Source: Aphelenchoides besseyi
Lineage: Eukaryota > Nematoda > Chromadorea > Rhabditida > Aphelenchoididae
Reading direction: 5' to 3'
Assembly (NCBI GenBank): GCA_024699855.1
Contig: JAMPIQ010000003.1
Coordinates: forward strand, 992,001 to 1,056,000
Length of the DNA: 64,000 bases
Shown here: positions 5,160 through 40,832 of the stretch, one piece after another
How the letters are laid out: each line of letters starts with the position of its first letter
How positions within the stretch are numbered: position 1 is the first letter of the stretch
The notes under the pieces: model-generated
The model's input: the letters and a program-made list of their open reading frames with translations, nothing else
Databases searched by the model: none
What the model was told of the DNA's origin: nothing
Made by a program: the position numbers and the translations under genes

Positions 5160-5640
5160 TTACACAAACTGAACGTTCTTTTTATCGTCACTGACTTCTT
5201 CCTCATTCTCGGCATTTTCGCTGCTTATGGTAAAGCGGATAATAAGTGAGCTGAAAAAAGTTAAAACCAACGCAACAGCTCTTTTAGCCTGCTAAATGTT
5301 TTCTTGTATTACATCTAATCGAGCTCGACCGTTGTATATCGTTCGAATTGTTTACGGATCACTTAAGACGATTGTAGCTTCAATATTCGCTATTCTTCTC
5401 TATCGCTGCAAATAAAAAAGGAACGCAGAAATCAGCACATACTTTGTAGTTGGTTATCAATTCAAAAGGTCTCAATCATTTTGAGTATGAAATTATTAAA
5501 TTGCATTATCTAACGAATGATTTCAGATCAACTTCATTGCTGGAATCAACGTCATCTCGCAAATAGCGTTCAATTTCGCACCCAACCTTAACTCTTTTCT
5601 CGTTTTGCAAATCTTTGATGTTATGCTTTCCAGTTAGGTC
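5160..5640 (+). other. Fragments of a membrane-protein-like sequence
   Basis: Short plus-strand stretches translate to membrane-like segments: LHKLNVLFIVTDFFLILGIF at about 5163 and INFIAGINVISQIAFNFAPN at about 5528. They could be exons of a multi-pass protein, but no start, stop or consistent splice chain was found. This may be gene remains next to the transposon cluster. Confidence 0.25.
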
Positions 5641-5748
5641 GGCCCGACAGTATCAACGTTGGCTTAAATCGATCTTCTTTGTACGGCTCTCGTTTATTTG
5701 GTCGTCGTTGGGGGGGTCGAGTTATGGCTGTTCAAGCTGTCAGCTCTA

Positions 5749-6384
5749 CAGGGTGGGCAAAAATGAATGACCTTTTCGAAATTTCGAATATCTCGTTTAT
5801 CTTCGATTTTTTTCCGAACAAACCGTATATTTTCTGAATCCTTACAATCCCCAAATTCAGATGATAGCAAATTTGGAATTTCGATATTTTGACCTAAGGG
5901 TCCTCCTTTGCTTGTGAACCACCGAGTTGGAAAAGTGATCAAAATTACGACGGTTTTCGTCTTTTTGCCTCATTTCCTCGTTATTCTGTTTGAAAATGGT
6001 TTACTCCAATCAAGAGAAAGCTTGTTATGTACGAATCTTCATCGAAACCGAATACGATTACGCGAAATTTGGCAAAATCGAACAATGCGAGAGCGAATCG
6101 CCGCAAACTTTTCTCGACGATTGGATATCTGCATCGACAGAAAAGGTGGTCAAGTCGAAGTTCGTTAAATTGTTGATTTTTTTGTTAATCAAGTTTTTTT
6201 TTCAACTCGGTGGTTCACAAGCAAAGGGGAGACCCTTAGGTCAAAATATCGAAATTCCAAATTTGCTATCATCTGAATTTGGGGATTGTAAGGATTCAGA
6301 AAATATACGGTTTGTTCGGAAAAAAATCAAAAATAAGAACGTTATTTGAGATTTCGACAAGGTCATTCATTTTTGCCCACCCTG
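5749..6384. mobile_element. Mariner-type internal-deletion element (636 bp)
   Basis: Inverted repeats of about 190 bp start CAGGGTGGGCAAAAATGAAT and are mirrored by CACCCTG at 6384. TA flanks both sides (5747-5748 and 6385-6386). The arms differ at scattered positions. The interior encodes only the N-terminus of a transposase-like protein. The CAGGGTG terminus and TA target match the outer ends of the 5.9-kb element at 19955-25849. Confidence 0.85.
5996..6178 (+). pseudogene. Transposase N-terminal HTH remnant
   Basis: The open frame from 5996 begins MVYSNQEKACYVRIFIETEY and continues CESESPQTFLDDW before running into the right TIR. The M-x-Y-[ST]-N-x-E-[KR] start followed by a helix-rich segment resembles the N-terminal HTH module of mariner-type transposases (the DUF4817-like type). 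No catalytic domain follows, so the element is non-autonomous. Confidence 0.5.
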
Positions 6385-7054: not shown

Positions 7055-8668
7055 TTATTTACTACAAAATGGAAAAAAAAAACAGAAGTATTTCTGGCAG
7101 TACGAACAAGGAATGAAAGATTGATGATCGCATTCCTCATCGCAGTCTTGCACAACGTCGGACGGAAAACAAAACTCGGTCGGTGTCAAGAATTGGTCGA
7201 TCGGTGAGTCAATGTATCCGATTTTTTCCCAACTGTATTCCAAAAATTGCTTGTACATCAGATGAGAGAACTGACGGTACACGAGCTCTAACACGACCAA
7301 GATATTCGTGCGGTTGTAGAGCGCAAAGTCGATTTCTTCGCGCGAGAACGTGTCCGTGAATTCGTTTGACAAAGGACTTGAACACACGAAAGAAAAAGTA
7401 ATCCGCAGGTTGAATCATTGAAGTGGCAACGGGAGGTATGTTTTGAATCACCAATCGTTTTCCTTCAGGAACGACCGACTGCATTGTTTGATGATCCTTG
7501 AAGAAGGTCCAAGAGTCAACGATGAGCAGAAGTTCTTCCGGAATGTCGTCGGTGAACAAGACGTTTCGAAGCCATCGTTTCATCAGTTCTTTCGTCATGA
7601 TATGACTCCTGTGGCATTCGATCTCCAATATCGTTGACTCGTAACTCCAATTACGTGGGAAGTGACCAGAGGGCTCTGACAGAACGACGAAAAGCTTCTT
7701 TCCCAAGCGACCATTGGCGAAGAGAATCGGCATCACAGTGTAGCTGTGAGTAGTTGACGAAACAGCTTGCACACATCGCTCCACATTTCTTTCGCCCAAA
7801 CGTGCCAACGATCGTCCGGAAACCATTTCTTTCTGGAAACCCGATTGATCGGCATTGACCATTGCAAAAGTTGGAAAGTTGAGTTCGCGAATGTTGCGGA
7901 CGAAATCGGCGGCTAGTTGCTCGGTTGTTGCCCGTGAACGTAGAGAACGGTGGCTGACGATACGCGTAACATGACGGCTGACAATTCGACTTGACGCTTT
8001 GAATGTCTGAATCCAGCGAATTGATGCACCAAATCTCGGGACTTGCAACTCCAAGTTTATTCTTCTTGCCATCGCCTGAAGGTCAACATCGTGCAACATA
8101 ATGCCTCGTTCCAATTTGTCGTAAACCTTCTCACGTAGTCGTTCTGTCAATGCTCGAAGTTGATTGTGACGGTTGATACACGCGAGTTCGTTGATTTCAA
8201 ACGTTCTTAACGTCTTCAAGTCGTTTTTGGTTTTGATGAACGCGTAGCGTTTTCTTATTGATGACAAAGGACGAGAGTTCTTTCGCGTCGAACGGTAGTA
8301 AACGAGAGCTTCACGAACACATTCTGTTGCGACGTAGATTCCACCCTAGAATTTGATCATGTTCGGGTGTGCCGGATCAGTTGAAGCGCTGAAAGTTCAT
8401 ACAAAACAATAAACAAAAATTAACGATAAGGCGTTTACTTGGGAAATTCATTGTCGTCGGCCTCATCGTAGTCGTCGTCGTATGCATCGGCGGTGAAATC
8501 GTCATCACTTTCGTCTAACTCGATTTCATCTCCACTCTCGGCACGTCTGACCATCGACACCACGACGTCTACCAGTTTTCGTTCCGTACGTCCCATTGCT
8601 TGACCATCAACAACAGGTCCCAAACGTTTTATGAGCAGCCTCAGGAATCCAGAAGTCGAAAATTCCAT
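7055..8668 (-). pseudogene. Tc5-type transposase, frameshifted
   Basis: The first exon, starting at 8668, reads MEFSTSGFLRLLIKRLGP with an RTER motif and an Asp/Glu-rich stretch. The main frame, 8267 downward, has an HTH (WIQTFKASSRIVSRHVTRIV), then catalytic acidic motifs VNADQSGF, LLIVDSWTFF and IQPADYFFFR, consistent with the DDE/DDD fold of Tc5/pogo enzymes. The C-terminus is in another frame (7387-7055): YSWEKIGYID, then a Cys-rich tail CSYCQKYFCF. The frame shift falls near 7360-7400, just after FFFRVFKSFVK. The frame ends 37 bp from the left TIR. All catalytic residues remain visible, so the copy is nearly intact. A short unrecognised intron is an alternative to the frameshift. Confidence 0.75.
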
Positions 8669-9649: not shown

Positions 9650-11607
9650 TTAATTCCAATAAACGTAATACAATACAAAGAAATGGTGAAAACAGAGAGA
9701 TTGTTGGCAATAGCCGCAGGCCAAAAGGGAAGGCGAGTTGCAGTCGTTTTGAGCGCACTCCATGTTGAAATTGTTGAAGCAGAATTGCACGGGATGAACG
9801 AAAGTGTCTAATTGAACATCGTTGTAACCGGCTTGTTTCCACGAATGTCGGCGGAAATCAACTAAACGGGGAGCCGCGAATTGGTTGTGGGTAAGAGACA
9901 TCAGTTTGATCGCGTTGTCTCGTTGAAACATCGCAACTCCCGTATCGAACAGAATTGCGTGATCGTGAATCTGTTCGGTCTTGTTAGCACAGGACAACGC
10001 AACAATATTTTATTAACGGTGTAGAATTCAACAACAATAAATAACTAGACCAAGATCAAGGCAATTAACCCAGTCAACAACAGACACCCCACAAGCTGAC
10101 TGACTATCGGCGGCAAGGGGCGAGATAATCACAATGCCAATGGTGTTACAATAAACCAATCAAGACAAGTCTCAGGACCGAACAGAATCTTTCGCCCGAA
10201 ATTCTTCCACATTCTAAAGAAAAAGACATCAAGTGGTTGAGCCAAATAGGTGACGTGACGGGGAATTATTCGTATGTTGATATTGCGATCTTGCGGACGA
10301 ACGAAATTGATTGCTGTGTTGTTGCGAAATCCGGACCACGAGTCGAGAATAAAAATCGAGTTGTCGGGCATATACGGAAACGCACAGTGCTCAAGAAATT
10401 CCGTCATTGTTCGAAGGTTCATAATTGAACTTGTTCCCGCAGTCACATGCATGTTCCGACAATCATTTGCTCGCTAAAATAATTCTTGACATTGCTTCAC
10501 GTGCAATCTTACATTTTGTGCAAAATGAGTTACCGTTCGGGGAAATACTCCGTCTCGTTCTTTCATTTGCATGAAAAGAATCGGATGAAGCGTACCGTCC
10601 ATGGAAAGCAACGGGACGACTGTATACGAATGTGTCAGAGAAATGCTTGAAGTTGCCATTCCATGAACGTGACGTTGTCCTTGATCAGCAAGAGTTCTCT
10701 CCGAATGATACTCCAAACGACACCCGCAATGATCAGCGTTGAAGACTTGTGAAGGCGCGAGTTGGTGTCTTTGAATTTCGTTTCGGATATCCGCCACAAA
10801 AGCATTTGCATTCGTTGTGTGTTGCTCGTCGGCGTTTTGTGATGCGACTGTAACGAACTTTGTGACTTTGCGATCAACAATTCCGAACCGACGCTTGAAA
10901 CGTTTGGCCCAATTCTCCGACGCCGAAAATTCGATTGGCTCCATCAATTCTGCGTTTGATTGAACGGCAAATAAACGAAGATCGAGAGTTTTCACGACTT
11001 TGTTCGCATTTCTGGCCACGCAGTATTTCGCGTAAGTCGCTTCATCGATCAATTGCAAAGCTCGTTGTCGCGTTTCTAAAGACTGCTGATCGTCTAACCA
11101 TCGAGTTTTAAAGCTGTAAAATAGCTTTCAACACATAAAACTTGCTCTAGCTTACATTTTGAATCGTCGCCAAGCAGAATCGGTATTCAAAAAACGGAAA
11201 CGATGTTGAACGCTCTGTTTTGGACGAAACTCCGTGACATTGACGGGAACTGTTTGGTTGTCATCTACTTTGCAGTAAAAACGTATCGCTTCTTTCATCG
11301 TTTCAATTGGAATCTCACGACCACCAATAGTCCAATGTTCAGAAGTAACGCCAATATGATCGTCTTCATCCGAATCAAGAGGGAAACTTGATTCATCGAC
11401 GGCTTCATTTTCATCATCAGAACCGTCAATACCGACCATCTCATCCTCATCAAACTCGAATTGGTTTGCAGCGGCAACGGTTTGTATCAATTGTATGAGT
11501 CGAGAAGCAAGTTGACGCTCTGTTCGAGTAGCAGAGTTGGTTGAAACATCTCCCAAAGGTCCAAATCTCTTGACCAAAAATTGAACGACCACTTTAACGT
11601 TGAGCAT
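9650..11607 (-). pseudogene. Tc5-type transposase of the 2.7-kb element
   Basis: Exon 1 from the ATG at 11607 encodes VVVQFLVKRFGPLGD, an RTER motif and a long acidic region, then a donor after FRFLNTDSAWRRFKM. Next come NWAKRFKRRFGIVDRKVTKF (CENP-B-type HTH), FNADHCG, then after a stop or TTTTAG acceptor at about 10474, FILDSWSGF and YLAQPLDVFFFR (three acidic catalytic motifs). The C-terminus at 9650-9997 has SWKQAGYNDVQLD, PVQFCF and a Cys-rich tail CGYCQQSLCFHHFF. The frame breaks between 10129 and 9997 were not resolved as introns. The domain order matches the transposase at 7055-8668, though the sequence is divergent. Confidence 0.7.
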
Positions 11608-11898: not shown

Positions 11899-12096
11899 CA
11901 ATCGATCAAGCAGAAAAATTGCGATCAATTGATGCCAAAATGTCAAAAATTCAAAATTTTAGTTTTTGGCCAATAACTCGGCCAATTCTGCGACTGGGCA
12001 AAAAAGATGGGTATATTCAGCATTAGCGTAAAATTCCGCGTCGATTGATCTATAATTCAGCCAAAAGTAGCGGGGACCACTCAGGACCTCTCCTTG
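11899..12096. repeat. Right TIR of the 2.7-kb Tc5-like element
   Basis: Reverse complement of 9431-9628, ending CCTCTCCTTG before TAA. Confidence 0.85.
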
Positions 12097-14170
12097 TAAG
12101 AGCCTCCCATATTGAGTCGAGCTCGATGCTGTCAAATGCTTTTTTGTAATCGATAAATGCCATATGTAATGGTAACGCCCATTCACGGTGTTTCTCGCTG
12201 ATCAGGTTGATAGTTAGGATGTGATCGGTTGTGGAGTAGTTTTTCCTAAATCCGGCTTGTTCGATTGGTAGTTGTGCTTTTTGTGTGTTCATTTGTTCTG
12301 TGATTCTTTCTGCTAAGATTCTGGTGATCATTTTATAATTGATGGTGAGTAGGTTTATTGGTCTGTAGTTGGAGACATCTGTCGTATCTCCTTTTTTGTG
12401 TAGCAGAATGGTTTGTGCATGTGTTAGTTGTACTGGGAACTGGTGTTCTTCGAACATTTTGTTTATGTGTGTAGCAAGTTGTGTTGCCATAAATGGTGAA
12501 GAGTATTTTGTGATGCTTGGCGAGATTCTGTCAATCCCTGGTGAGGTATTTCCTTTGATATTCCCGCATGCTTTGACGATTTCGTCCGGTTTTATGGGAT
12601 TTTTCAGTTTTTGTGTGTTGTGGTAGGTGAAGTCTCCGTTTTGTGAGGCGTAGAGTTTGCTGTAGAACTTTGCAGCTTCAAAGACCGCTTCTTCGATCGT
12701 CGTTGTGTAGGTTCCATCTTCTTTCTGTAGTTTTGTAATTGTCTTTCGGCTGTAGGCCAGTTCTCGCCTTCCATTTTTTAATTGGTGTTTCTTCAGGTTC
12801 TTCTCGAGGACTGCTTTGTGGTGTTCTTTGAGGTCTTCCATGATTGACCATCTGATTGATTTGCATAAGATTGTGTATTGCAGGTGTGTATTTTGTTGTG
12901 TCCCGTGTTTTAGTTCTCTTCGTTGTTTCATCAGTGTTCTTGTATTTTCCGATATTCTCGGTGTTTTTCGTTGAGGTTCTTGTGTTTCGTCTTGTATGGT
13001 TCTTTGTAGTTGTAGGATTTCATTATAATCTTTCGGGTCTTGTTGTAGCAACTTTATGCGCGTTACTATTTGGACCATTTTTTTGTCGAATTTTGGTGGT
13101 AGGTTGGTCTGGTGTGGTCTGAAGGCTTTTGTGTTGCTTCGTGGTTGTATTGTTCCTCTTAACATCCTGTGATCACTCGCGCAGTCGAATTTATTGAGTA
13201 CGTGGGCGTCGGTGATTAAGTGTTTTCTGTTTGTGATTATGTAGTCGATTGTGTTTTTTGTTCTGCCGTTCGGGCTTTTCCATGTCCATTTGTGGTCGTT
13301 TTTCTTTTGGAAGAACGTATTGGTTATATAGAGATCATTTGCCTCACAGAAGTCGATCACCATTTGTCCCCTTTCGTTTCTGTTTCCGTTTCCATGCTTT
13401 CCGCAGCTTCTTTCATCCTGTTCTTGTGGTCCTGTTTTGGCGTTGAAATCGCCCATTATGATATGTGTTGTTGATCGGTCGTTTATGGTATTTTGGAGAT
13501 CGTCGAGGAATTTTTCGTATTCCTCGTCGTCATAGCTGTTGTGTGGTGCATATACCTGCGTGATTTTGTACGTGTGTGTTTTTATTTGTACCGTGATTTG
13601 GATGATTCTGTCCGACACGTATCTGACTGTGTTTATGTGTGTGTTCATGTGCTTTGTGATATAGAAGCCGACTCCGGTTTTTTGTCGCAAGTTCGTGGTA
13701 TTTTCGACTCCACTGTGATAGAGCAAGTGACCGGACGCGAGTTCCGTGCATTCTGACCCGTCGATCCAGGTTTCGATCAGTCCGATTATCGGTGTATTCA
13801 GTTCTGTCGTGTTTTGTTCAAAGTCGAGCAGTCTACGGGCCGTTTTTATTCCGCGCACGTTGAGTGTGCTGATGTGTATCTTCTGGTCGGGTTTTTGTGC
13901 CTTGTTTATTGAGTTTGCGTATGATGCACGTCCTCTTCTCAGGTTCTTTCTTAATCGGGGTTGTATCGTCGTGGTTATGTTCGTTGTGGTTTGTTGATCG
14001 AGGTTGTATGCTCCGTTGTTGGGTTCCTCGTCTCCCTCTCCTCCTCTTTTGGATTGGCTCCCGGTCCACAGGTTGCTCCTGTTGTGCCCGCCCGGCACAG
14101 ACGGACCTCGGTTGATGTCCTCGGTCGCGAAGTCGAGAGCGGAAAAAGGGACCGACCGCTCTCCAATCAC
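12097..14170 (-). mobile_element. RTE-type LINE, 3'-truncated (EN plus partial RT)
   Basis: An uninterrupted minus-strand frame encodes an apurinic-type endonuclease (ISTLNVRGI, then IGLIETW, QVYAPHNSYDDEEYEKF, IIMGDFNAKTG, TIDYIITN, SDHRML) and the first part of a reverse transcriptase (GNTSPGIDRISP, ILLHKKGDTTDVSNYRPINL, EQAGFRKNYSTTDHI, AFIDYKKAFDSIE). The RT motifs resemble the RTE clade. The frame stops being LINE-like exactly at the right end of the 2.7-kb Tc5-like element, before the catalytic [FY]xDD box. The LINE is therefore truncated and cannot be autonomous. Confidence 0.8.
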
Positions 14171-17742: not shown

Positions 17743-19952
17743 CGTTTAATTGATCGTGAAATCTCCTCAATATTGTTATGTCGCTCAGTCGTCATTCTCA
17801 TTAATTTTAGTTAAAGAACTTATACAAGATTCCATAAGCGTTTTGTAAATGATTTTAGAAGCAAAACGACAAGTATCCAAGAATATGACATAAACGTTTT
17901 ATACTATTATAGAAAATCAATTGGAGATTCAAAGATAAGCATTTTGAGCTTTTCTACGAAGCTATTTTTGTTAAACAGGTGTAAAAACACTTCTTCACGA
18001 ATGTTTTTAATTTATTAGTTGACGATTCCATTAATCAAGAGTTTGCATTCAATGACCAAACGATTCGGACCTTTGCTTTTCTGTCTCGAGTTCTTCTTTT
18101 GAATTGCAATCTTTTGTGAAGGTTTGATTTCTTCCGAACTCTTTAATCTACTAAGAAGCAACTGTCTTTTATTGCAATCATGTCAATTGAAATACAATTG
18201 TTAGTCGATTACTCAATTTAGCATTTTGTTTTGTTTTTGTACATGTCTAAAATGATGTTACAACCAGAAGTTTGTATTAGAGGTTCTGATTTAAATTGAA
18301 CAGCTTCTATGCTGGCAATCGTTCCATTCTGATTGAACATATTTTGTTTGTTTTTTAATCACATATTGTAGAATTTAAATGTTCTTTTCTATTGGTTAAT
18401 CTCCGGCCACTTTTTGACTTAATCGTATTCAAATCCAACAAGTAACACTCTTCTTAGTGACCATCTTGCTTTTGTCCTGTTGATCATTAGTGTTTAATTC
18501 TAAACTCAATGTGGAGCTTACATTGTCCATATTCCAATAGATAGTCATTCTAATGGTCTTAATTGTGGTTTTAATTTCAAGTTCTGTAGACACCGTTTGT
18601 TTGACTATTCAGATAACAGTCATTAATTGTATACGATTAATAGACTGGTCAAATGGCTTATTTTTCGTATTTGTAACCACTTATTCTTCGTCTACAAGAA
18701 GTGCGAATTTCCGACCAAGATTAAAGTTAATTCAACTACGACTTCCACATCTTCTAGTTATTATTCTCTGTACATGTATTCATTTTAGCTACGTTAAAAA
18801 GCGACTAGACTATCGCTGTTATTCTCCTAATAATTCGCGAGTCTCATTGTTATTTGATTGACAAGTAATCTTAATTTCGTTTTCCTTTTTTGATTCTTTC
18901 GTGTCTTTAAGAAGCCAATTTTAAAGCACATAGATCTTTAGATATTCGGAATTTTGTTGGATTTACCAGATATTGACGTTTCCGGTTCGATTTTTATTCT
19001 TTATTTCCGAACAATTAAACATACAAGTAGGTAATCAACTCTTCGTTTCATTCTTTAAAACAACACTTACATATAATCTCCACATTTCTCTTTCTTTTCT
19101 TCGATAACACAAAATCAATTCTCAACAATTAACATATAAATCGCACTCTCTTTTTTCATTTCAAAAAAAAGCGAACGCGTTCGATCGTAAACAATCAATC
19201 AGACTATTCCCGCTTCTTTGTTTTGGATTTGTTCTTTATACTTGCAAACAATTCTTGTTTTCAATTCTGCATTCAACGTTTATTAAAAGAATTGATAGTC
19301 ACGACGTTTATTCTTCGAGTCATTTTTTATTCTTGGTTGATTTCTTGACAGCGCGAATGTTTATATTAAGCATCGTGTAATTCAAATGCATTCTCAACCC
19401 TCTATATCATCCACGAATCACGCAAATTGGCGATCGAACTCAACGGCAAAAACGCAAAAAGCAACGAAAAAACTAAGCGGCCATTCAACCGTCGAGCGAA
19501 CGGAAAGTCGATCGATCGCCGCGAAGCAAGAGCCTCCGACCAACAGCTTTTTACACCCGAACACTTTAAATTTCAAACATTCGGTCGACGATCTTTGAAT
19601 GCGCTCAAACATCGAAAACGAGAAAACTAATCGGAAACATTTGAACTCAGTTACCTTCAGATCGAGAACAAAGCAACAAACATCAGTTGATACGTGAGTG
19701 TGCAATATTGTCCAAAAGGTTATTGGCATGTTTTCAAGCGATTGTTTATGTAAGTGTTCATTTTCGATTATGAGCACGTGTCTGTGTTTGTTCATGAAAA
19801 TTAATGTGACGTGAAAATCGCTTGCAACTCTCGATTGTAGCAACAATTTCACTGACAATCAAATGGCTGGGAATCTGTTTTGCTGCAAACTTTTAATCTT
19901 ATGTTCCGGCATCTGATCAAACGAACAATTGAAGTTCCAAGCACACGCTTTC
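17743..19952. other. Long stretch without a supported gene
   Basis: AT-rich with scattered short frames. A slightly more GC-rich patch at 19386-19860 has overlapping frames on both strands (for example MHSQPSISSTNHANWRSNST on plus), none with a recognisable motif. Part of this may be the displaced upstream region of the esterase gene at 26037, because the 5.9-kb element lies between them. Confidence 0.35.
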
Positions 19953-19954
19953 TA

Positions 19955-20033
19955 CAGGGTGTCTCAAAAAAGGGCAAGCGTGCTGTAACTTTTTAACCAG
20001 CCATTGTATGAAGATTCTGTAAAAAGAAACTAA
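19955..20033. repeat. Outer left arm, 79 bp
   Basis: Identical to the reverse complement of 25771-25849. It starts CAGGGTG after a TA and ends GAAACTAA. Confidence 0.9.
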
Positions 20034-20205
20034 CAAGGGAAGGCTCATTAGCCACCACGCGATATTCACGCATACTGTATGCCAAAAAACGCGCCTTTTC
20101 AAAAGGAATCTGATGGTGTTATCAGTTTTTGCTCTGGGGTACCCTGCGTGGACTTATGGGCTTTTGAAGTCCACGCAAATTGCGTGCTTTTTGGACGTTT
20201 TTTTG
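20034..20205. repeat. Inner left arm, Tc5-like TIR
   Basis: Begins CAAGGGAAGGCTCATTAGCC and includes TATTCACGCATACTGTATGC and CCACGCAAATTGCGTG. It is mirrored near-perfectly by 25600-25770. The TTCACGCATA and CCACGCAAAT blocks also occur in the MITE at 1000-1456. Confidence 0.85.
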
Positions 20206-20280
20206 GAGATGCGCGGACGCAAGCGCGTTTTGCGAGTAGATTTGACTTTTTTGCATCGCCTTCGAGTTATGAGCGACAAG

Positions 20281-20517
20281 TGCGCTCGAGTCTGTTTCCT
20301 TGAGCAATCTAGTGGTTGGTCCAAGAGTGGGTACGTCGATGAACGATCGGAAAGATGCCAAAAGCCAGCTGGCTACTGTTTCAATTACCAATCGATCGAA
20401 AGATGTCAAGAAATACCGAGATGTACTCGTTTAGCATTCATCAGATGTGCTCATTGCGAGCAGTATTATTGTTTTCATTGCATCTTTACTTCCGACCAAG
20501 CGCACCTACATCTTTAA
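20281..20517 (+). pseudogene. Tc5-type transposase C-terminal tail, lone
   Basis: The plus frame reads SGWSKSGYVDERSERC, then PAGYCFNY, then a Cys/His cluster FIRCAHCEQYYCFHCIF before a stop at about 20517. It lines up with the tails of the two Tc5-like transposases (SWEKIGYID, PTEFCF, CSYCQKYFCF and SWKQAGYND, PVQFCF, CGYCQQSLCF). Only the tail is present; HTH and catalytic motifs are absent. In the complete elements the tail ends beside a TIR and reads outward. Here it starts beside the left TIR and reads inward, so this piece is inverted relative to the TIRs or is a captured exon. Confidence 0.65.
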
Positions 20518-20689
20518 TTGTTGTCGCAGTAAACTTTTCAGGTTCACTTTAATACTCTAACTGATTTAAACAAACGACTACTTAAAATTGATTAGAATTA
20601 CAAAAAGTTGCAAAACCAATCAAAAAAATGCGAAATTGCAATCGACCGGCTTTGATCCGATCTAATTAACCTTTTTTGCCGTTGAACTC

Positions 20690-20815
20690 TTGTGATTTGA
20701 CCGCTTTGTGAATCGAACCCGTTTGTGCTCACTGAACCCGCTGGACGCTGTTGGATTTGCACCGGAAGGTACAAAGCCAACGGCTTAACCACTAGACTAA
20801 TTAGTAAAACGATTT
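20690..20815 (-). other. tRNA-like patch
   Basis: On the minus strand TCTAGTGGTTAAGCCG resembles a tRNA D-arm/A-box, followed by GGTGCAAATCC (weak B-box) and, further on, GGGTTCGATTC (better B-box). It does not fold convincingly as a tRNA. It is comparable to the A/B-box modules in the other Tc5-like elements. Confidence 0.35.
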
Positions 20816-21381
20816 GGATCGTGATTTGTAAATCTTATATCAACTCGTATTGGAGAGCGACCAGAATGGCAATCAAAAAAAGAGCGTGTCCACTTGCCAA
20901 AAAAAAGTGACAAAAAAGCGTCCGAACGTCGACCAAAAACGAGCAAATGCAATCAATCCAGCACACGCTTCTTTACGTGAAAAGAATACAACGTTTCCGG
21001 GTTTCGCCGTTTTTGCCTCAAATTGGCGAAATCGAATCAAACACGCAATTTCAAATCTTTATGAGCGATGTTTATTTGATTGTAAGCAAAGTATTACAAA
21101 TTACAATAGATGGATATCGTGAAGAGAAACAAGACTTATGGGCAAAATGGTGGGAATGGAGGGGAGAATCATGGGAACAATGGAGTTAAAATTCAAAACC
21201 AAAAGATCGATTGTACAGAATACGAAAACCATTCGAATTGGAAGAAGAAGAGAATTCACGGAAGAAGTCGGCGTTTTAGGATGTGCTACTCGGTGTTCAA
21301 AAAGAAGGACATCTCACGAAGAAGTTCGGAGCCCGCATCCTCGTTGATCCGAAATTCTCGGTTCTGAGATGTTACACAAAG

Positions 21382-24300
21382 TTATGGTTGTAAATAAGTT
21401 TTGCATTGGGGGACATCAGGCAATGGATAATTGCAGTAGTCTTTTCCGTATATTGCACCAATTACAAGCGATGTGCGGCGTGTTATTGGTAGATCGTAAC
21501 TGTGCATGAAAGTGCATTCGGTGAGCGCCACACAGTATTCGAACTGGAGCCGCTTGTAGAACTTTCGTTGTTCTTCGTTGAGTTGGTCCTTTCTTCGTAG
21601 AATTTTTGTTATCTTGTCGATTGCAGCAAGATAGCTGCGGAAGTAACATCGTTGCCAGTCAGAATAAGCTGGTGTTCTTCCATCCGATTGTTTTATATCC
21701 AGTGGGTCTTTTCCTGGTTTCCAGTGGTTGTACCTGGTTAATTCCATATTATTCATCAGATTGTACAATGTATTCTCTGGTTTTGTCAGAATCTCTCTAT
21801 TCCACCGTTGACAGTATTCTTGTCGCAACGGCGGGAAGAACCCATCTATCCAATTATGTAGCACAAGTGATGGCCACAGAAATGCAACGGAAAACTTCTT
21901 CGGGTCAAAATCGTCGTTGAAAGTGTCTGGAACATCTTTTGTGGTTTCATCATCTGGTAGGGCATCTGGATCGACAGGTTCGAATGGGACGTCTGCATCA
22001 TCATTAGGTGTAAATCTCTTGAAATAATGATCGGCCAACGCTCGGATTGTTTGAAGACCGGTGACATCGCCGTCGGTACACATTACAATCTTCGCGTCGT
22101 ATTTCATGGAGATTGCCTTTGCCAAATTACGAAGTTTGGAAGTCTTCGAAGATCCGCTCAACGCGATTATTGGCCCTTCAGTGTCTTCAATTTGAAGAGC
22201 AATTTGTCTGTAGTCCAAAATTGCTCTTCCTTTTCCTTCATAAATTAGCACAGCCGCGATTTTGTTTATTTCTTTGCCTTTTGAGTTCATGAACTTGAAT
22301 TTGTTGTCACTTACTTCCGAGGCTGTGTCTCCGGTTATTATAAACGGTCGGAGGATGTTGTATACTTCCTCTTTTCCTTCTTCGTTCATGTATTTGAAGA
22401 AACCAATCAGGAAACTGTCGAGGGATCCGGGCTTTATGCATCTTTTGACCGTGTTGTGATTAACAACTGCTTTATCGGGACCGAACAGGCGTTGGAAGTT
22501 CGTGCTGCCTTGAAGATCTGAAGACAATCCATTTTTTATATGTGCAAGATTTCGACGGACAAGATGCTTGAAACGTCCGGAGCCAATTCCCAGGGCGATT
22601 TGAATAGCATGAACTGATAATTGTAAGCTACTTTGTTGCCAAGTAATTGAACGACCCGCATTTCGTGCGTAGGCTATAGCCCATTTGAAATCGACGTCTT
22701 CGTCTTTCACTGCGTTGAAGAAATCGATGAGTGTAAACAGGGCGTCAAGAGCATCTACGAGAACAAGCGTTTCCGGCTTTTGATTTGGCGCTGTAAATGT
22801 AACCTTGGAGTGTTTCTCTTGTTGTTTATTTGTTTCAGCGGCTATTTTCTTGGCAATTGGAGCGCCACCATTTTTAGGTTGACGTCTTGTTAAACAGCGG
22901 ATGAAGTTGCTGAATACTGAATTACAAACATTGTCGGTGTTCGGAAAGGTTGTTTTGATCTGTTGTTGAAATTTTTCGATGCCGGGTAACACACGATGAA
23001 GTTGAACGTCCATCAGTTTTTGAACCAGCGAGGATGTGTAGGTCCAATAATGAAGGGAATGTTGCGTGTATGATTTGCGTACTTCTTCGGGCACTTTGTA
23101 GTGGCCTTCTTCAGCTATGTTTGGCATGGTTTTAATCTGCAGGTAAGACATTTTTGATGACGCTGAGTTCCAATCTTCGATCATTTGTTGAGTCATACCG
23201 CATCTTTTGAATTCATCAGGTATTGAATGAGCGATACTTCGGTTGAACCACCACTCGATATTGCCGATAAGTATGAAATCCATTAGAGAATCCAATGCTC
23301 GTGATTTATCGGTTGAATGTGAAATCGATCTAATGAATTGCTCGTCCAGCGAAAATACCTGTTCTTCATTGGGTTCGGTGACTGGATCTTCACATATTGC
23401 AAGTGATTCTAACGAAATTTGTGAAACTTGTTGGTTATTAGCAGCCATCGAAAATTCTTCGGCAATGATTGGTTCTATTGGTTGAGTGGGATCTATTTCC
23501 ATTTGCATGTCGTCGATTGCGTCAGTGACCTGTAGAGCTTCGGCTGCTGTTTCGGCACGAATTTTTTCATTAATGTCCGTATCCGGAGCACCCACTGTAT
23601 CGGCAACGACAAAAACGGGAATATCTTCGGGATTGTCGTAAAAGTGATGTGCTGCTAGTTGATAACGAAGCGAGTTAACGTGTTGCTGATTTTTTAGTAT
23701 AGTGCGTTCTTCATCATTAATTGAGACGGCATATGGCTCAAGTAATCTCTCAGCTATGAAGCACAAAGCAATTCCATAATCACATTCTTGAGGCGGCGGA
23801 TGGTAGATGTTTTCGTATGCTGTTGTAATGTGGCATCCGGGGAAAATCCTCAAGAAAAATTCGCGTGTTTTGTCTAGTCGATCGTCGTCAATTTGAGAAG
23901 CCGTCATATACTGAACGTTGAGATTGGGATCGTATAATGTTGCTTCAAATTCCAAATTATTGGTTGTGTCGACGGTAATAAATGCGAATTTTGGAGATTG
24001 ACGATCATCGGTTATAAAAACGAATCCTTTACGCAGTACTTTGCGTTCGTCATTGCTCAGTTTGTCATCGTTGTTATTGTCTATGTGACGACTGAAGAAC
24101 TGATTTCCTAACACATCAATTTTGGCTGAGTACGGGTTGCTAAGTCTGAGGCGGAGAATTTCCTCAACAAATACAAACGGACGGATTTCGTTTCCATAAT
24201 TTAAGGAAAGGATTTCCTCTTTGTTGAGTTTTCCGTTGTAAATGTTGTCGATTGGTTGGTCGTTCTTCAGGTTGTCCAGAACTTTCATGAATTTGCTGAG

Positions 24301-25323
24301 TGCTTTAACCATTCCATCAGTGTAAGCACCAATCATTGGCGGTTGCAATTTACGAAACATCTTCAGCCCTTCTTCGATTGCTTTCGAACAACTCTCGTGT
24401 CCACATCCAATTTTCTTGCATTGTTGAGTGGTGAGTTTCGAAATGCTTCTTACTGATGTCAGTTGAGTGGCTAAGGTTTGCGTGTTCACGTTCAATGAAT
24501 TAAGTTCGTATGCGTCGCGATTGTTGCTGGAGGTACACGCTTCGTCAAGAATATCCACATCCATGTTGTTGTCTGTAGAACAACTTTCTTCGTCTTGTTG
24601 ATATACACGAATTCGCATCTTACTCCATAGTTCCGATAATTCCGGACGTTCCGTTATTTGCTTGCAATTCTCGTCCGATTGCATAACTTCTTTCTCCAAA
24701 TTGATAAACTCTTCATTATGGTGGAGTTTTTTATGAATAGTTGAGACTGATGGTGGAGACATCTCTTCGTCAACGACAAGTTTTCCTGCGGTTTTGGCAA
24801 AATTGTCGAAATTGGGCCGATTCTTCCAGTGACGGTTCAACGATTCATCACCCAAACTTCTCATATGATCGTATTCTAACGACCATTTGCACTGCTTTTT
24901 GATGAATTCCGTGTACGCTTGTGAGAAAGATGGATTCTTCCAATTGTACGGCGACACAGCAAACTTTGCTTTTCCATCGAGAACTTGTCTTAAATAATCC
25001 AGCAAAATTTTCTTTTGGTCTTTTTTGATTTTGTTGGAAATTTCCGTTTCAATTGCGGCTTGTTGTTCGGTTGAAGGATTTTCTACGTTGTTTAGTCGAC
25101 TAGTCAGTTGTTGTTGTAACAAATCTTCATAACTGGGTTTGAAAATCTCTTCAAAAACGTCCTCAAACAATTGGTCGAATCTGCGTTCATCGATGGTACC
25201 TCCGGCCTGCAAAGGGCCTTTGATTGATGGCCCTTTGCATCTTCGCTTCATGACATCAGTTGGGTTGTGTTTACATCCCACCACGTCGCAAGCTTCAAGC
25301 TGTTCGTCTACGTACACAATCAA
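21382..25323 (-). CDS. 1,313-codon protein: dead Ulp1-like plus Spo11/TopoVIA-type Toprim
   Basis: The minus-strand frame is open for 1,313 codons. The frame begins at a TTG; the first ATG is codon 25, so translation starts there or on a spliced upstream exon. Two Cys/His motifs of form CxxxGCxH occur near residues 12-19 and 305-312 (CDVVGCKH, CKKIGCGH). Residues about 400-530 look like a Ulp1/C48 fold (FAFITVDTT, LYDPN, ECDYGIALCFIAERL), but the expected catalytic Cys is Tyr516 and no His matches. Residues about 1020-1105 form a Toprim domain: AVLIYEGKGRAI with E1029, IIALSGSS, then KIVMCTDGDVTGLQTIRAL with D1084 and D1086. The 55-residue Glu-to-DxD spacing and TDGD motif match Spo11/Top6A better than GyrB/Top2. 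The usual 5Y-CAP tyrosine about 95 residues upstream was not found. Function unknown; DNA breakage or joining for transposition is an inference. Confidence 0.7.
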   Translation of the reverse strand: MIVYVDEQLEACDVVGCKHNPTDVMKRRCKGPSIKGPLQAGGTIDERRFDQLFEDVFEEIFKPSYEDLLQQQLTSRLNNVENPSTEQQAAIETEISNKIKKDQKKILLDYLRQVLDGKAKFAVSPYNWKNPSFSQAYTEFIKKQCKWSLEYDHMRSLGDESLNRHWKNRPNFDNFAKTAGKLVVDEEMSPPSVSTIHKKLHHNEEFINLEKEVMQSDENCKQITERPELSELWSKMRIRVYQQDEESCSTDNNMDVDILDEACTSSNNRDAYELNSLNVNTQTLATQLTSVRSISKLTTQQCKKIGCGHESCSKAIEEGLKMFRKLQPPMIGAYTDGMVKALSKFMKVLDNLKNDQPIDNIYNGKLNKEEILSLNYGNEIRPFVFVEEILRLRLSNPYSAKIDVLGNQFFSRHIDNNNDDKLSNDERKVLRKGFVFITDDRQSPKFAFITVDTTNNLEFEATLYDPNLNVQYMTASQIDDDRLDKTREFFLRIFPGCHITTAYENIYHPPPQECDYGIALCFIAERLLEPYAVSINDEERTILKNQQHVNSLRYQLAAHHFYDNPEDIPVFVVADTVGAPDTDINEKIRAETAAEALQVTDAIDDMQMEIDPTQPIEPIIAEEFSMAANNQQVSQISLESLAICEDPVTEPNEEQVFSLDEQFIRSISHSTDKSRALDSLMDFILIGNIEWWFNRSIAHSIPDEFKRCGMTQQMIEDWNSASSKMSYLQIKTMPNIAEEGHYKVPEEVRKSYTQHSLHYWTYTSSLVQKLMDVQLHRVLPGIEKFQQQIKTTFPNTDNVCNSVFSNFIRCLTRRQPKNGGAPIAKKIAAETNKQQEKHSKVTFTAPNQKPETLVLVDALDALFTLIDFFNAVKDEDVDFKWAIAYARNAGRSITWQQSSLQLSVHAIQIALGIGSGRFKHLVRRNLAHIKNGLSSDLQGSTNFQRLFGPDKAVVNHNTVKRCIKPGSLDSFLIGFFKYMNEEGKEEVYNILRPFIITGDTASEVSDNKFKFMNSKGKEINKIAAVLIYEGKGRAILDYRQIALQIEDTEGPIIALSGSSKTSKLRNLAKAISMKYDAKIVMCTDGDVTGLQTIRALADHYFKRFTPNDDADVPFEPVDPDALPDDETTKDVPDTFNDDFDPKKFSVAFLWPSLVLHNWIDGFFPPLRQEYCQRWNREILTKPENTLYNLMNNMELTRYNHWKPGKDPLDIKQSDGRTPAYSDWQRCYFRSYLAAIDKITKILRRKDQLNEEQRKFYKRLQFEYCVALTECTFMHSYDLPITRRTSLVIGAIYGKDYCNYPLPDVPQCKTYLQP
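25208..25239. repeat. Perfect hairpin inside the coding start
   Basis: TGCAAAGGGCC, a 10-base loop, then GGCCCTTTGCA: 11-bp perfect arms spanning the codons just after Met25 of the Toprim-protein frame. Confidence 0.7.
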
Positions 25324-25599
25324 AGTCGTTGAACTTGCGAGAGAACTACTGTGCGATCGGATTTGAAGTTGTTGTATTCAATTACGCGTTTCCAGTCGAA
25401 AACAATTCCGAAATTTGACATCGATGCGAAAAATTCAATTTTCTTTACATCTCACCATTTTTGCGTGCTTTCTTTCCAATCAAGGCAATTTCAAGGTGAT
25501 TTCAGGAAAGTAGCAATTTCACGCAAAGGGCAAAAAAAGAAAAACAACGTGAAATTTTTTTGGATCGTTATTTTCCCTACATTTTCCCTTGGAATCGAG

Positions 25600-25770
25600 G
25601 ACGAGAGACCAAAAAAGCACGCAATTTGCGTGGACTTCAAAGGCCCATAAGTCCACGCAGGGTACCCCAGAGCAAAAACTGATAACACCATCAGATTCCT
25701 TTTGAAAAGGCGCGTTTTTTGGCATAAAGTATGCGTGAATATCGCGTGGTGGCTAATGAGCCTTCCCTTG
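25600..25770. repeat. Inner right arm, Tc5-like TIR
   Basis: Reverse complement of 20034-20205 with about two mismatches; ends CCTTCCCTTG. Confidence 0.85.
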
Positions 25771-25849
25771 TTAGTTTCTTTTTACAGAATCTTCATACAA
25801 TGGCTGGTTAAAAAGTTACAGCACGCTTGCCCTTTTTTGAGACACCCTG
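25771..25849. repeat. Outer right arm, 79 bp
   Basis: Identical to the reverse complement of 19955-20033; ends GAGACACCCTG before TA. Confidence 0.9.
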
Positions 25850-26036
25850 TAGTTTCCAATGATACAAACGAGGACGTGAAGGTTCAACTCGTTCACTTTC
25901 TACTCATCTGATGATTACAACGCGAGTTCGAAAATATCAAAAGAGATGCTGATCACTTGTTTTTGTGTTTTAATCTCCATATTGATTAACATAAACGTGT
26001 GTGATCGGAAAGAGCATTCGAACCTCCAATCACTTG

Positions 26037-27810
26037 ATGGAAATGTTTTTTCTGTTTTGCTTTTTACCGCTTTTGTTTGCTGGAGATGTTCAAATCAAAT
26101 TGACCACCGGTCCAATCAACGGCTACACGATTCAAATCGAACAATCGGAGGTCATAGCTTTCAAGGTTCGAAGCTCAGTTATTGACTTTCACTGACGACT
26201 TTCAGCGGATTCAATTTGCCAAACTGAAATCTCATTTGAACTTTCCAATCAGTTCGAATGGAAATTCCGAAGTATGTGATCGAAATTGTTTGTTCGTGAA
26301 TGTTTTTGCTTCTCGACGTTGTGTCGACCATTTGGTCGTATGCCAAACAGTTTTCTGGATTCATGGCGGTGGATTTCAACGTGGAAGTCCCGATGAATAC
26401 GACGAAAACAAAATCGCTGAGCATTTTGCTCGTCACGAGCTCATCGTTGTGGTTCCTTCTTATCGTCTGGGAGCGTTCGGTTTCTTTAATTTGGACGACT
26501 CGGCGGATTCCCTTTACAATTTGGGACTATTGGGTGAGTTAAGGTCCTTAAAGCAATAAACAGATTGTAGATCTGATCTCCGCTCTTCGTTGGACTCAAC
26601 GCGAATTACCACTTCTTGGCGGTCGAATAGACAAAATTTCGATTTTCGGTCATGAAGCTGGAGCGAGCTTGGCTTTCTATCTCTTGTCAAGTCCAGCTGT
26701 CGAAGAAACGGCTTTTCACTCCGCAGTTCTCAGTTCACTCATTCCCGATTTGTCAATTGAACAAACTCGGACGTCAACCACACTTCTTCTCGATCAACTT
26801 CACGTGAGTTTACACTTTGAGTTGAACATCTTTTTGTAGTGTTTGATGACAGAGACTAATGTCTTAAGTTCGACAAACGATAAAATCTCTTGTTTGCAAA
26901 ACAAGTCGGTGGAAACGATTTTGGAAGCAAGTCGCGAGAAACAGTTTGGGCCACGATTCGACTCGTTTCTGTTGCCATTCAAAGACAACATTCAGATGTA
27001 CCAGAACCTAAAGGTCAGTTGGCCATCCAGATCTACGCACATTGGTTTTAGAGCATTCCAATAATGATCATTCAACCAAAAGAAGTGGTGTTTTTGAGTA
27101 ATCAAACTGTGAAGAACGAATGCGTAAAACAAAGTCGTCTGTTGGGATATCAAGGCCCGTCGACTCTCGATTCGTGCATCTTCAGCAATCGGTCAGTCGA
27201 CTTAATTCATCCGTTTATGCACAAGATAGCGATTATGAATCATCAACGTGGAATCCCAACTTACTTGGCAATTTTTGCACAAAATTCCGATTCCAACGGT
27301 TTGGATTTTTTGGTCAAAAAAAGGAACTTGAGTTCGGATGACCGGATGTTGAGTACCTTGTTTGCGGAAGCTGTCCACAGATTCATTTCCGATCAACGTG
27401 ATGATATTCCCGGTAAGCAAGTTTGAACTCAGAATGATCTGCTCGTTTCAGTTTGGCCGTTGGCTGATGAATTCGGTCACAATTACTTTTGGTTTCGGTA
27501 CGATACAAATGATACGGGATCTCAATCAGCGTTAATCGATTGGCCACACCTTGTAATGAATGAGTTTTATTTGCCAGAATCAACTCAATTTTGGTTGTCA
27601 ATTGGACAATTACAAACAGTGATTCAACAGCCATCAGTTGTTGCGGTTCCCGTCCGTCAACAAGATGGTCAGCTGTGGACTGCATTTGTGATTGTTCTTT
27701 TCATCGCCTTCTTTTTGGCCGCAATTCTCGGCGTCGTCGTTGGCTACAAATTGTACAAACGTTGGAAGCTGTTGCAGAAGCTAGAGTCCGATCAAATCGC
27801 TAAGAAGTAA
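26037..27810 (+). CDS. Cholinesterase-like membrane protein, no catalytic Ser
   Basis: Six exons join cleanly: 26037-26165, 26206-26533, 26571-26803, 26840-27013, 27052-27412 and 27452-27810. A signal peptide (MEMFFLFCFLPLLFAGDVQ) leads into a type-B carboxylesterase/cholinesterase fold: CLFVNVFASR, the oxyanion-hole motif FWIHGGGFQRGSPDEY, VVVPSYRLGAFGFF, and FGHEAGASLAFYLLSSPAVE. The nucleophile position of the usual GxSxG elbow is Glu (GAA at 26654-26656), and no catalytic His is evident near the C-terminus. A membrane helix (TAFVIVLFIAFFLAAILGVV) and a short basic tail finish the protein, so it is a type I membrane pseudoenzyme. Neuroligin/glutactin-type adhesion molecules share this layout, so an adhesion or receptor role is plausible. 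The 5.9-kb element ends about 190 bp upstream and may affect its promoter. Confidence 0.8.
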
Positions 27811-36369: not shown

Positions 36370-39300
36370 TTAACCAAATTTATTTGAAAACACGCCACTC
36401 AACCTCCGCCAACTAGTCCGCAAACCAAACTCGTGTAACGTTAAATTTCGGTCGTTTAACAAATATTCCAATCGACGTAAAGCTCCGCCTTCTCTTTGTC
36501 GTGCTAATTCATCCGACGTTAAATTTGAAGGAAATGCAGCTCGTGGAGGGAGCAAAAAATCCTTAAACTTTTCCCATGCATCCAGCGGTTTGTCAATACC
36601 TCCCATTAGCACTTGTGCAAATGTTAATGTAAAACGAAAAACTGATCGATGGTTTTTGGTTTGCTCGAGTGCATCAAGAAAAAGTTTATCGTTTGCGATG
36701 AATCCTAATGCTTTTGCGGCATCAACGAAGTCATCGTAAGTTTGATCATTAACCGTTCGAGCATCTTCGTATGAACGAATTCCGGGACGCTTAAGCACGA
36801 TCAATCTTAATGCGGACAATTGGTGATTATAAAATGGCACTGGCGATAAGCCGACTACACGTTTCAGCAACTTTTTTGCAGGACGCCATCGTTTTTCGGT
36901 TTTTATGTAAACATAACATGAAGCAAAATCAGTAAACGTTAAGTTTGAAGATTCAACGTTGTCTTGGTTTTCACGGTTGTACGACATCCACGCAGTAAAA
37001 GGTGAATACGAATCTTCATCTTCGTCGACATTCGCATATTCGTACAATTGTTCTACTGAATCATAGTGATTCGGTTGAAAAGTTATGGAATGTTGTCGTG
37101 GTAGATGTATACGCAAAAAAAACGCATTATGAGATACATAAAAAGGACCTAATAAGTAAATGTTTGCCAACGCTTCATGTACAGTCACGTAATGCACGCG
37201 CAAATAGTAAGCAGCTTCATCGACATCGACTGTTACTTTTCCGTCGTTGTCCTTACGTAAATTCTTAAAAATGTCGTTTTTTCCACGATCTAATTTAATC
37301 ATTTCTACGTAAACTTCAGATGCACCTTTCGTTATGTATTTGTATAGATACCGCTTGCAGCGTTCGTGGCGAATAAATTCGACATTTGAATGACCATTCC
37401 AAAAACTGAGAATGTACGGGTTGTATGGAACTACATCAAGATCAGTAACTGTGCGCAATTTTCCAGTAGTATCCTTCAATACAGAACTTGAACCTCCCAT
37501 TTTAGGCGTCAAACGTCTGTACCGCGCAACATCTTCTTCGACTACTGTATTAGGAACCGAATTTTGTGGATAACCTTTTGCGCATTGCCCCTTTTTCTTT
37601 TCGCGTCGACATAGTGATGTATCGCTGTGAGAGTGGACGTTAAACTTTAAAACACGATTGCGTAGTTCATTTAAATTATCAGAAACTCCAGCTGGTGGTA
37701 GACGTGCCGAAATTATGTCATCAACAAACGCTGCATCTCGAATTGCGTCGCTTTCTATTGAAACACACAGATGAGCGTGCAGTAAACCTCTTTTTTGTTC
37801 CTCGATCGCCACTGCGTACCATAGTAACTTCCCGAGAATCCCTTTTTTTGATGAGCTTGGGCCTTTTAGTTTCTTCATAAACGCGCAAAGCTTAAGACGA
37901 AAAACTCGATTCAACAGATCAGGAGCATTTTCGGGATTGACGTTAAACTTTTCACATGCAATCAAAAACTCTGGCCATTTTGGTTTGTCGTTAACGTAAT
38001 GAAAAACTCGGCCGATCCGAGTTTGTCATCAAGTAAACACGTTCGCTTATAAGCCGCTTCCAAGTAGTCTTTCGACAGTTTATGTCCCGGCGGAAACTTC
38101 AGAATTCTTCCGATTTTATCTACCTTTTGGCCGTCGACAATCAAATTGTTAGTTTGCAGAAGTCTTTTCAGTTGCTCGTAATAAGCTGATCGCATCTCTT
38201 CTGCTTTTGCATAGCGCAGTTTTGGGGTTTCGTTTAAGTAATACTGTAACTCATTCCAGACAATTCGAAAGTGTCCTTGAATAATCCACTCGTCCTTTAG
38301 TTTTTCGAATGAATGAATGCGATGGAAAAAACGATCATCTGGACGTCGTGCCAGAAGATGTTTCATACATTCACGTATCGAACAATATCGTCGGCTTTTA
38401 TTTTTTCTGAAATCCTTTTCTTTCGCGGTTGCAACCGTTTCAATTCGATGCTCTTCATTTAAGTCCATAAAGCCCTCCAGAACCGGATTATAACTGCACA
38501 ATTCATCAAAATTCGGCAACTCGTCATTCCATTGGTCTTCTTCATCTTCCTCATCACTTTGGTACCCTTTTTGCAGCAATAATTTGCGTGGAATTAGTTG
38601 CTCTCCTGTTGGTGCCATCAGTGTGTACACCAAAGGATCAACGTTAGCGCTGAAAGGTTGTATTTGCGGCAAATTCGTCCGACTTTTCTTCATCTTAGGG
38701 TTTCTACTGAAAACCCAAACCCCATTTGGGATTTCAGGCACTCCGGTATTGTCGCCGGACTCTTGAAAAAGCACTGCTGTTATTACCGAATCACCGGGTA
38801 GGTTTACTTGGTGCTTGTGAAGTTCGTGTGTTAACAGTTCACGTCCAACTTGTCGATCTTCAACAAAATTCATTACGAAATGAGGGATTGACTCGTCATT
38901 AGCGTGCTCATTCAAATACTCATACGCCGATCGATAAGCCTTTGCGAATGGATTGTTAGCTGTGATATATTGAAATAGCTCATCTACAATTTCTTTGCCA
39001 AATTTTTTGTGCAACAAATCAAATGCTGAATTTCGATGCTTTTTACCCGATGTTTGCAATGGTTGGTTTTCAATATTCTTCAAGAACTCTTCACTCGTAC
39101 TGTTCATTGCAAACGCAGAACCAAATTTAGGAATTCCGGACCACGGAGAAATAGGAGATAATTGGAAAGTAAAATCCAAATTTGTACGTACTATCGGCGG
39201 ACCACGAACTTTAGGTTGCTTTCGATCAACCATTACAGATCCCATAGATATCAACTTGTTATAAGTTATCGAATTTTTTCGGAATTCATTACCGATTGGG

Positions 39301-40832
39301 TTATCGTGGTTTTTGTCTAATACTTGCAACCAATTTTGCATGAATTTTGGCATTTGAGGAAGAGTGGGATACACTACACGTCCATTGCTACAACACACAA
39401 AATAACTTTCATTGGGAAAGAGACAGGCATTGCAACTTTTACAGTAAACATTCATCTGTCCGCAATTCTGAGGGAGCACCAAACATTGTTTGCTTATAAA
39501 AGCTGATTGATCCATGCATTGTCTACCGCGAGTCTTCGATTTCTTTTTGAGCTTGATATTTGATGGCATCAAAACAGTACGTCGACGGGTTTTCATTGGC
39601 GAAACGGAGATTTGGTTATCGACAAAATTTCCAAAAAAACCTTTCGCTTTCTTCTTAGGTATTGGTCCCGGAGATTCCGGAGAATCGTCGTATTCCACAT
39701 CAGATAGATCAGAATCTGATGAAAGTATTACTTGACAGATGGGAACAACTTCACTCGATCTTCGACTTTCTTTGTGTTTTGGAGTTTGCTGAGTAATTGT
39801 CGGAAACGTATTTGCGCAAAGTTGATTTATATACGATTCAAATGCTTGATCATAATTAGCAAAACTTTCGACAAACAAATCTAACAACTTTGCACGTTTC
39901 TCATTGCCAGTTTCGTTTTCCTTCAGCATAAATGTATGCTGCTCTACTACCGACTCTTTGATGCTTTTGAAAAACAACAACGTGTTACTGTATACGTATG
40001 CTGCGCAGTTTGTTCCATCGGTTTGTTTGTCAGTTTCTTTTCCAATATCGATTAGAATCATTGTTGCCAATGAATTCATTTGATAATGACTGACAAATAT
40101 CGACTGGAAAATACGTTCAAACTGATCGACGTAGTGATTCAAAGGAGCCATTTGGTAGGAATCGCAGTAATAAACTGCGTATTGTGAACTGTTTTCTTTT
40201 ACTACCATAATTGCTAATACGAAATGACTTCGAATTGCATCAAAGATTGGTATAACCAAAAACATCGATCCCCCTTTGTCTGAAATTTTTGGAGGCGCAA
40301 TTAGATAATGATTCAATGGATTTGGATTGCAACCGGTTTCCCAAATTGCGCGCGGTGGAAAGGTGTTATTATCTACCCAAAATGTGTTGGACAACAAACC
40401 AATTGTGCGGTTATCATTACCAATAAAATGGGCCAACGAATACATGATCGACGTTGCATCAATGTATCCGTCGCCAGCTATTGTGCGCAATTGTTCAGTG
40501 CCAACGATTGCACTGGTTGCAATAACTGCAGTACATTGGTCACTTCGATTGTGGGTTGCTGATTTTGTTCCCAAAAATAACAAACCATTCATTGACACAC
40601 TTGGTGCAGATTTATAAGTTTTTGTTGTATCAATTGGTGTATCGAATTGCGATATTTCGTTATCTGAACCGCTCCATTCTAACTCTGCTTCGTATTCTTC
40701 GGTTTGTTTTTTCAATGAATCGAAAGTCGACTGCGAAGATTTCTTTGGACGACCGAGTGATTTACCTTTCTTAGTGGGTCGACCTACTGGTTGCCCACTA
40801 CGTCGATGCTCTCGTTGTGTGAACTTTCCCAT
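36370..40832 (-). pseudogene. Helitron Rep protein with N-terminal Ulp1 protease; one frameshift; helicase missing
   Basis: Two abutting frames (40832-37962, 956 codons; 37965-36370, 531 codons) make one protein with a one-base loss at about 37985, inside the FITLTTN motif. Order: basic AT-hook-like GRPTKKGKSLGRPKK; a Ulp1/C48 protease with H203 (SHFVLAIMVV), D224 (YYCDSY), Q270 and C276 (QTDGTNCAAYVY), all catalytic residues present; a Cys-rich zinc finger (CGQMNVYCKSCNAC); then Rep: the HUH motif KRGLLHAHLCVSIE (His63/His65 of the second frame), SFWNGHSNVEF and the catalytic tyrosine block RYLYKYITKG. This defines a Helitron rolling-circle initiator. Sequence ends shortly after LHEFGLRTSWRRLS, where the Pif1-type helicase should begin, and a truncated mariner follows. 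Helitrons with added protease domains are known; this copy looks inactive. Confidence 0.8.

Follow-up and report, generated by a model that had tools for sequence, protein, structure and literature searches.

Nested Tc5-like transposon pieces around an orphan gene with a putative Toprim-like domain in the nematode Aphelenchoides besseyi

Tc5 of Caenorhabditis elegans, an element of the pogo/Tc1-mariner type, has CAAGGGAA ends, long terminal inverted repeats (TIRs), TNA target duplications and the domain PF04236. Pack-type elements are non-autonomous DNA transposons that carry genes. Spo11/Top6A proteins are characterized by the order and the spacing of a Glu and a DxD motif. All three bear on a unit located in the window analyzed here, a stretch of 64,000 nucleotides from Aphelenchoides besseyi (contig JAMPIQ010000003.1, positions 992,001 to 1,056,000). 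A preliminary description of this unit had proposed a new transposon superfamily built around a Spo11/Top6A-type Toprim protein and, as an alternative, a cargo gene that hitchhikes. Judged by titles and the opening parts of abstracts, none of the papers listed in literature searches deals with a Toprim transposon of eukaryotes.

Architecture of the unit and its Tc5-like component

The boundaries of the unit read TA-CAGGGTG...CACCCTG-TA, with TA on each side, and the inverted arms (19952-20192 and 25612-25852) are 241 nt long and 99% complementary. The TA-flanked unit with TIRs of about 250 bp was thus confirmed, as was the single open frame of 1,313 codons on the minus strand. The features are collected in Table 1; positions within the unit (el) correspond to the window position minus 19954. 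On its right side the unit adjoins an exon of the carboxylesterase family (window 26182-26559, plus strand).

Table 1. Features of the unit, in window positions.
Feature	Position	Strand	Remark
Left outer end, CAGGGTG..., 79 bp	19955..20033	+	TA-flanked
Tc5-like non-autonomous element, left part	20034..20949	+	CAAGGGAAGG end
Fragment for Tc5 transposase C-terminal domain, PF04236	20317..20493	+	E 4e-14; ORF 20113-20517
4504-bp insert with gene	20950..25453	.	
97 bp from Tc5-like part to common 3' point of the gene	20950..21046	.	
3' untranslated part of the gene	21047..21381	-	
AATAAA, 24 nt upstream of the common 3' point	21071..21076	-	putative role
Open frame, orphan protein	21382..25323	-	1313 codons
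Toprim-like region, residues 1012-1180	21784..22290	-	E1029, D1084, D1086
Possible degenerate Ulp1-like region, residues 395-610	23494..24141	-	by eye and weak matches
Insert, 5' side	25324..25453	.	recurs with right end at C1:6089136-6092374 (L035)
Tc5-like non-autonomous element, right part	25454..25770	+	
Right outer end, 79 bp	25771..25849	+	

The unit 19955-25849 consists of nested pieces and is not one simple transposon. A DNA search of the genome with the left arm gave at least 40 matches (40 of 136 candidates were scored), five of which start at base 1 and 35 at query base 67-79. The relatives examined begin with CAAGGGAAGG or a near-identical sequence, adjoining TTA or TAA. From the starts of the left-arm matches and the ends of the relatives we conclude that the inner TIR belongs to a Tc5-like non-autonomous element and that the outer 79 bp represent a second piece. 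Both outer ends were found elsewhere in one element (L033/L034), with TA at each end, and one outer end was present in L035. The 79-bp piece also lies within one of the gene copies, L012, there without the Tc5-like part.

The gene-free relatives have a length of 1.2-1.3 kb and CAAGGGAAGG-type ends. At five of the six distinct loci with both exact ends the target duplications are equal (TTA or TAA), and L039 has TTA versus TAA; for L043 and L045 an exact pair of ends was not found. The relatives therefore combine CAAGGGAA ends with a TNA target duplication, as expected for Tc5-like elements. The passages of PMC6829131 consulted mention Tc5, not the Tc5 target site. The window copy shows TAA and TTA because its outer arms are inverted copies.

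Among the Tc5 transposase domains, the unit contains the C-terminal one only (PF04236), the coordinates of which were computed from residues 69-127 of the ORF. HTH and DDE domains were not found within the unit; other frames of the window have them. A Tc5-type transposase frame with DDE_1 (PF03184) and HTH_Tnp_Tc5 (PF03221) is located at 7209-8267 (minus strand), and a second one at 10474-11058 (minus strand) has an HTH match barely under the cut-off. Endonuclease/reverse transcriptase frames are present at 12050-14170 and 53827-55422 (minus strand). Elsewhere in the genome, at L004/L052 (C2:426141-428437), a gene copy is split by a 2.3-kb Tc5-like element that has CAAGGGAAGTG ends, contains a Tc5_C match and is flanked by a TGA duplication.

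The insert, its junctions and the copies of the gene

Nine distinct related loci cross the insertion point of the window without interruption. Eight of them are gene-free, and the ninth, L003, carries the gene at a point of the element that differs from the one in the window. A target-site duplication was not seen at the junction of the window insert, and the 97-bp stretch next to it matched none of the 22 further 3' flanks in the comparison. L035 shares el 5340-5895 across the right junction of the window (98% over 557 bp) and extends into the gene by some twelve bp; the outer flanks differ. In L002 (C2) and L003 (C1) the gene is located near el 920, in the orientation opposite to that of the window, and the right junction is common to both. 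In L019 the 3' end of the copy joins the element at el 912-916. Traces of such junctions are also found in relatives that lack the gene: in L048 a stretch of 29 nt matches the left junction of L003 exactly, its last six nt possibly being the element's own, and about 15 nt of L037 and L039 resemble the L019 junction and are only probably a short junction trace. The recurrence of the same junctions at unlinked loci shows that composites were moved or copied in one piece.

A search of the 47-Mb genome with the protein sequence gave at least 38 matches (35 of 94 candidates were scored), which after merging by position correspond to about 26 gene places on three large contigs. Tc5-like sequence was found at four of the 24 gene places compared (the window, L002, L003 and L005/L019), with three different junctions. 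The other 20, including L012 with its outer 79 bp, have no Tc5-like sequence in the flank compared, which was mostly 0.6-1.7 kb and in some cases almost absent on one side, and further gene places could have such sequence beyond these flanks.

The start codon of the frame in the window is TTG, and reading by eye revealed related sequence upstream of residue 6 in L052 and L053; the window copy looks 5'-truncated. Also by eye, short exon-like stretches upstream of L002, L003, L006, L013, L023, L052 and L053 would encode a membrane segment, and in several gene copies intron-like sequence comes after these stretches. Many copies contain stops. The pairwise dN/dS values ranged from 0.19 to 0.73 in 48 of the 49 pairs that aligned over more than 150 codons; the remaining pair was dropped as it consisted of two non-overlapping pieces of one copy. 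These values indicate that the gene sequence was under constraint.

Searching the genome with the 3' untranslated part gave 27 matches; in 21 cases the match opens with the first or second query base. A second type of 3' end has 13 matches, four of which are short. A comparison of 23 3' ends showed that 14 continue TCCACGG-like, seven diverge at AAATT and two stop short. L082 and L083 carry long internal deletions and retain the 5' module and the 3' end with few gene codons left. Long flanks are common to L016, L083 and L084; they extend past the presumed ends and are read as probable segmental duplications. An AP-2 fragment (PF03299, 1.6e-13) is located in the 3' flank near L083. This deleted copy (L083/L089, C1:15222250-15224800) lies in a block the flank of which is common to L016 and partly to L084. 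In L008, L011, L023, L004 and L016 the gene 3' end is followed by short palindromes that differ in their stems, for example CGCTTTTYCGCG.

LINE-type retroposition, which had been suspected from the fixed 3' and varied 5' ends, was rejected because intron-like stretches are kept and the 3' ends split; poly(A) was not seen at the 3' junctions inspected. A discrete element starting with TCTAGAAAT was rejected as well, since the shared flanks continue past the TCTAGAAAT stretch, which also builds a shorter inverted-repeat piece.

The Toprim-like region of the orphan protein

E1029 and D1084/D1086 were located as claimed, with the spacing of 55 residues from the Glu to the first Asp, and each of the three residues is kept in 12 of the 12 covering loci of the alignment. 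Pieces of residues 1012-1180 were compared with Pfam and matched Toprim_2 (12 of 17 pieces), Toprim (11 of 17, best E 7e-4), Toprim_4 (8 of 17) and Toprim_3 (3 of 17), all below the cut-off, together with single stray families, one of them at E 0.0049. With longer pieces Pus10_N_euk (3 of 24, E 0.0028) came slightly ahead of Toprim (10 of 24, best E 0.0034). None of the eight decoys (four reversed and four shuffled pieces) matched any family at E up to 1. The hhalign comparison with DnaG from E. coli gave a probability of 3.7%. Two AlphaFold models reached a pLDDT of 35.8 and 37.7; the order of strands and helices in these poor models fits a Toprim fold and proves nothing. Taken together, a Toprim-like domain in the orphan protein is weakly supported by its sequence.

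The assignment to the Spo11/Top6A type had a different outcome. With the profile PF21180, which in a control matched four archaea among 14 genomes, a search of the nematode genome at E up to 10 returned only the host Spo11 (three exons, C2:16044093-16044835), and PF04406 (TP6A_N) at E up to 1 returned only one exon of the host Spo11. PF21180 was not listed in an hmmscan of the gene pieces, and the module with the catalytic Tyr (TP6A_N) was not identified in the orphan protein. The Toprim part of the earlier proposal is thus retained on the basis of weak matches below the cut-off, but the identity as Spo11/Top6A is not supported, as the family models recover the host Spo11 and no copy of the orphan gene. 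A genome-wide search with the Toprim_2 profile (PF13155) did not detect the gene family, and therefore profile searches of the genome are less sensitive than hmmscan and their negative results count less.

Searches for homologues of the whole protein gave little. In a set of 5.8 billion proteins none was found at E up to 1 among the 7257-8000 best word-sharing candidates per search, and a sequence search of the PDB returned nothing or weak rows at E 0.32 or worse. A search among phages with residues 640-1313 found no relative, and the rest of the protein outside the Toprim-like region showed no family match above the cut-off. In NCBIfam guanine deaminase came out best (4 of 22 pieces, E 0.0034), with Toprim families absent among the matches of the gene pieces. 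The best PHROGs match, a family without a known function, covered 12 of 22 pieces (E 0.0017); a DNA primase family appeared in one of 22 pieces (E 0.13).

The possible Ulp1-like region has no Pfam match to Peptidase C48, and none of the 19 places found in the genome with PF02902 belongs to the orphan gene. BLAST in a tiny set gave an E value of 0.06 and hhalign a probability of 2.4%, and in the alignment of copies the position of the presumed Cys holds Tyr or His. Membership in the Helitrons was rejected: the protein has no Helitron domain, and a search for both gene 3' ends in ten Helitron-type/C48 loci, allowing up to three differences, found only poor partial forms. Helitron-like frames elsewhere in the genome contain a Peptidase_C48 domain, and the window has Helitron reading frames of 531 and 956 codons with Helitron_like_N (36373-40832, minus strand).

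Origin of the composite and comparison with known systems

The unit is probably a nested non-autonomous TIR transposon, in which a Tc5-like element has taken in a 4.5-kb piece with the orphan Toprim-like gene. An element of the Tc1/mariner-pogo type, reduced to the C-terminal domain of the transposase, would have acquired this piece. An autonomous element that shares the CAGGGTG or CAAGGGAAGGCTC ends was not found, and we infer the mover of the unit: judged by the ends and the domain, a Tc5-type DDE transposase most likely acts in trans on the TIRs. The outer CAGGGTG ends with their TA flanks would have been gained later. In the simplest reading the Toprim-like protein would be cargo, and the hitchhiking gene that the preliminary description had offered as its alternative fits best. 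To go by the motif alone, the protein, if it is an enzyme, would cut or join DNA in an Mg-dependent manner. The intact frame in the window and the dN/dS values count against the cargo reading, as they suggest more constraint than an inert cargo needs. That a single gene is joined to a single element family at three junctions could point to a closer link between them, and the lack of a target duplication at the insertion in the window also speaks against the main reading.

A TIR transposon superfamily whose transposase would be the Toprim-like protein, and whose deletion derivatives would be the gene-free elements, is very improbable. The gene does adjoin Tc5-like sequence at four places, and traces of the gene junctions persist in L048 and, with less certainty, in L037 and L039. 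However, the gene occurs in either orientation and at different points of an element that has Tc5-like ends and bears a Tc5 transposase domain, gene-free elements exist, and most of the gene places compared are without Tc5-like sequence. The protein might instead be the mobility enzyme of a repeat family of its own, one that has fixed 3' ends and derivatives with internal deletions and that landed in Tc5-like elements by chance. The recurrent 3' ends of both types, the derivatives L082 and L083, the constraint and a unit without any other long frame agree with this proposal; we nevertheless consider it quite unlikely, since the flanks of L016, L083 and L084 pass the presumed ends and, with an AP-2 fragment nearby, look like a segmental duplication, the 3' ends split after AAATT, the 5' terminus is not clear and a target duplication is lacking. 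A bolder version, in which a mobile family has a large orphan Toprim protein as its sole gene, cuts and joins DNA with it for its own movement without target duplication and also rides on Tc5-like elements, appears decidedly unlikely.

The dispersed copies could also form a family of host genes, many of them decayed, which segmental duplication multiplied and spread and which transposons captured only sometimes; the gene product is then not necessarily an enzyme. We regard this origin as unlikely. It would account for copies with long common flanks, one of them with the AP-2 fragment, for the intron-like stretches and the membrane-segment-like upstream exon seen by eye, and for the stops, but about 26 places scattered over three large contigs are many for plain duplication, and the E, D, D residues are kept in every covering copy aligned. 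If the Toprim assignment of the gene inside the nested Tc5-like unit is true, transposons copy or carry a large orphan family with the signature of a DNA enzyme around an animal genome. The copies, the junctions and the uninterrupted sites provide a concrete set for asking whether the protein is active in mobility or merely carried.

The orphan protein resembles Spo11/Top6A in the order and spacing of the Glu and the DxD motif; unlike Spo11/Top6A, its family is not found by PF21180 or PF04406 and shows no catalytic Tyr module. With Toprim families in general (PF01751, PF13155, PF13662, PF13362) it shares weak matches over the E/DxD residues and the beta-alpha order of a poor model, and with DnaG from E. 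coli the motif DGDxxG, whereas all its matches to these families stay below the gathering cut-offs. Like Pack-type elements, the composite is a TIR element without a transposase core that has another gene aboard and recurs at unlinked loci; in contrast to them, the window unit has as its cargo an orphan Toprim-like gene, in its own right a dispersed repeat. The unit and its relatives have the CAAGGGAA ends, TNA duplications, long TIRs and PF04236 domain of Tc5 from C. elegans, but the unit differs from Tc5 by the absence of the transposase core, by its outer CAGGGTG ends with TA flanks and by the 4.5-kb insert.
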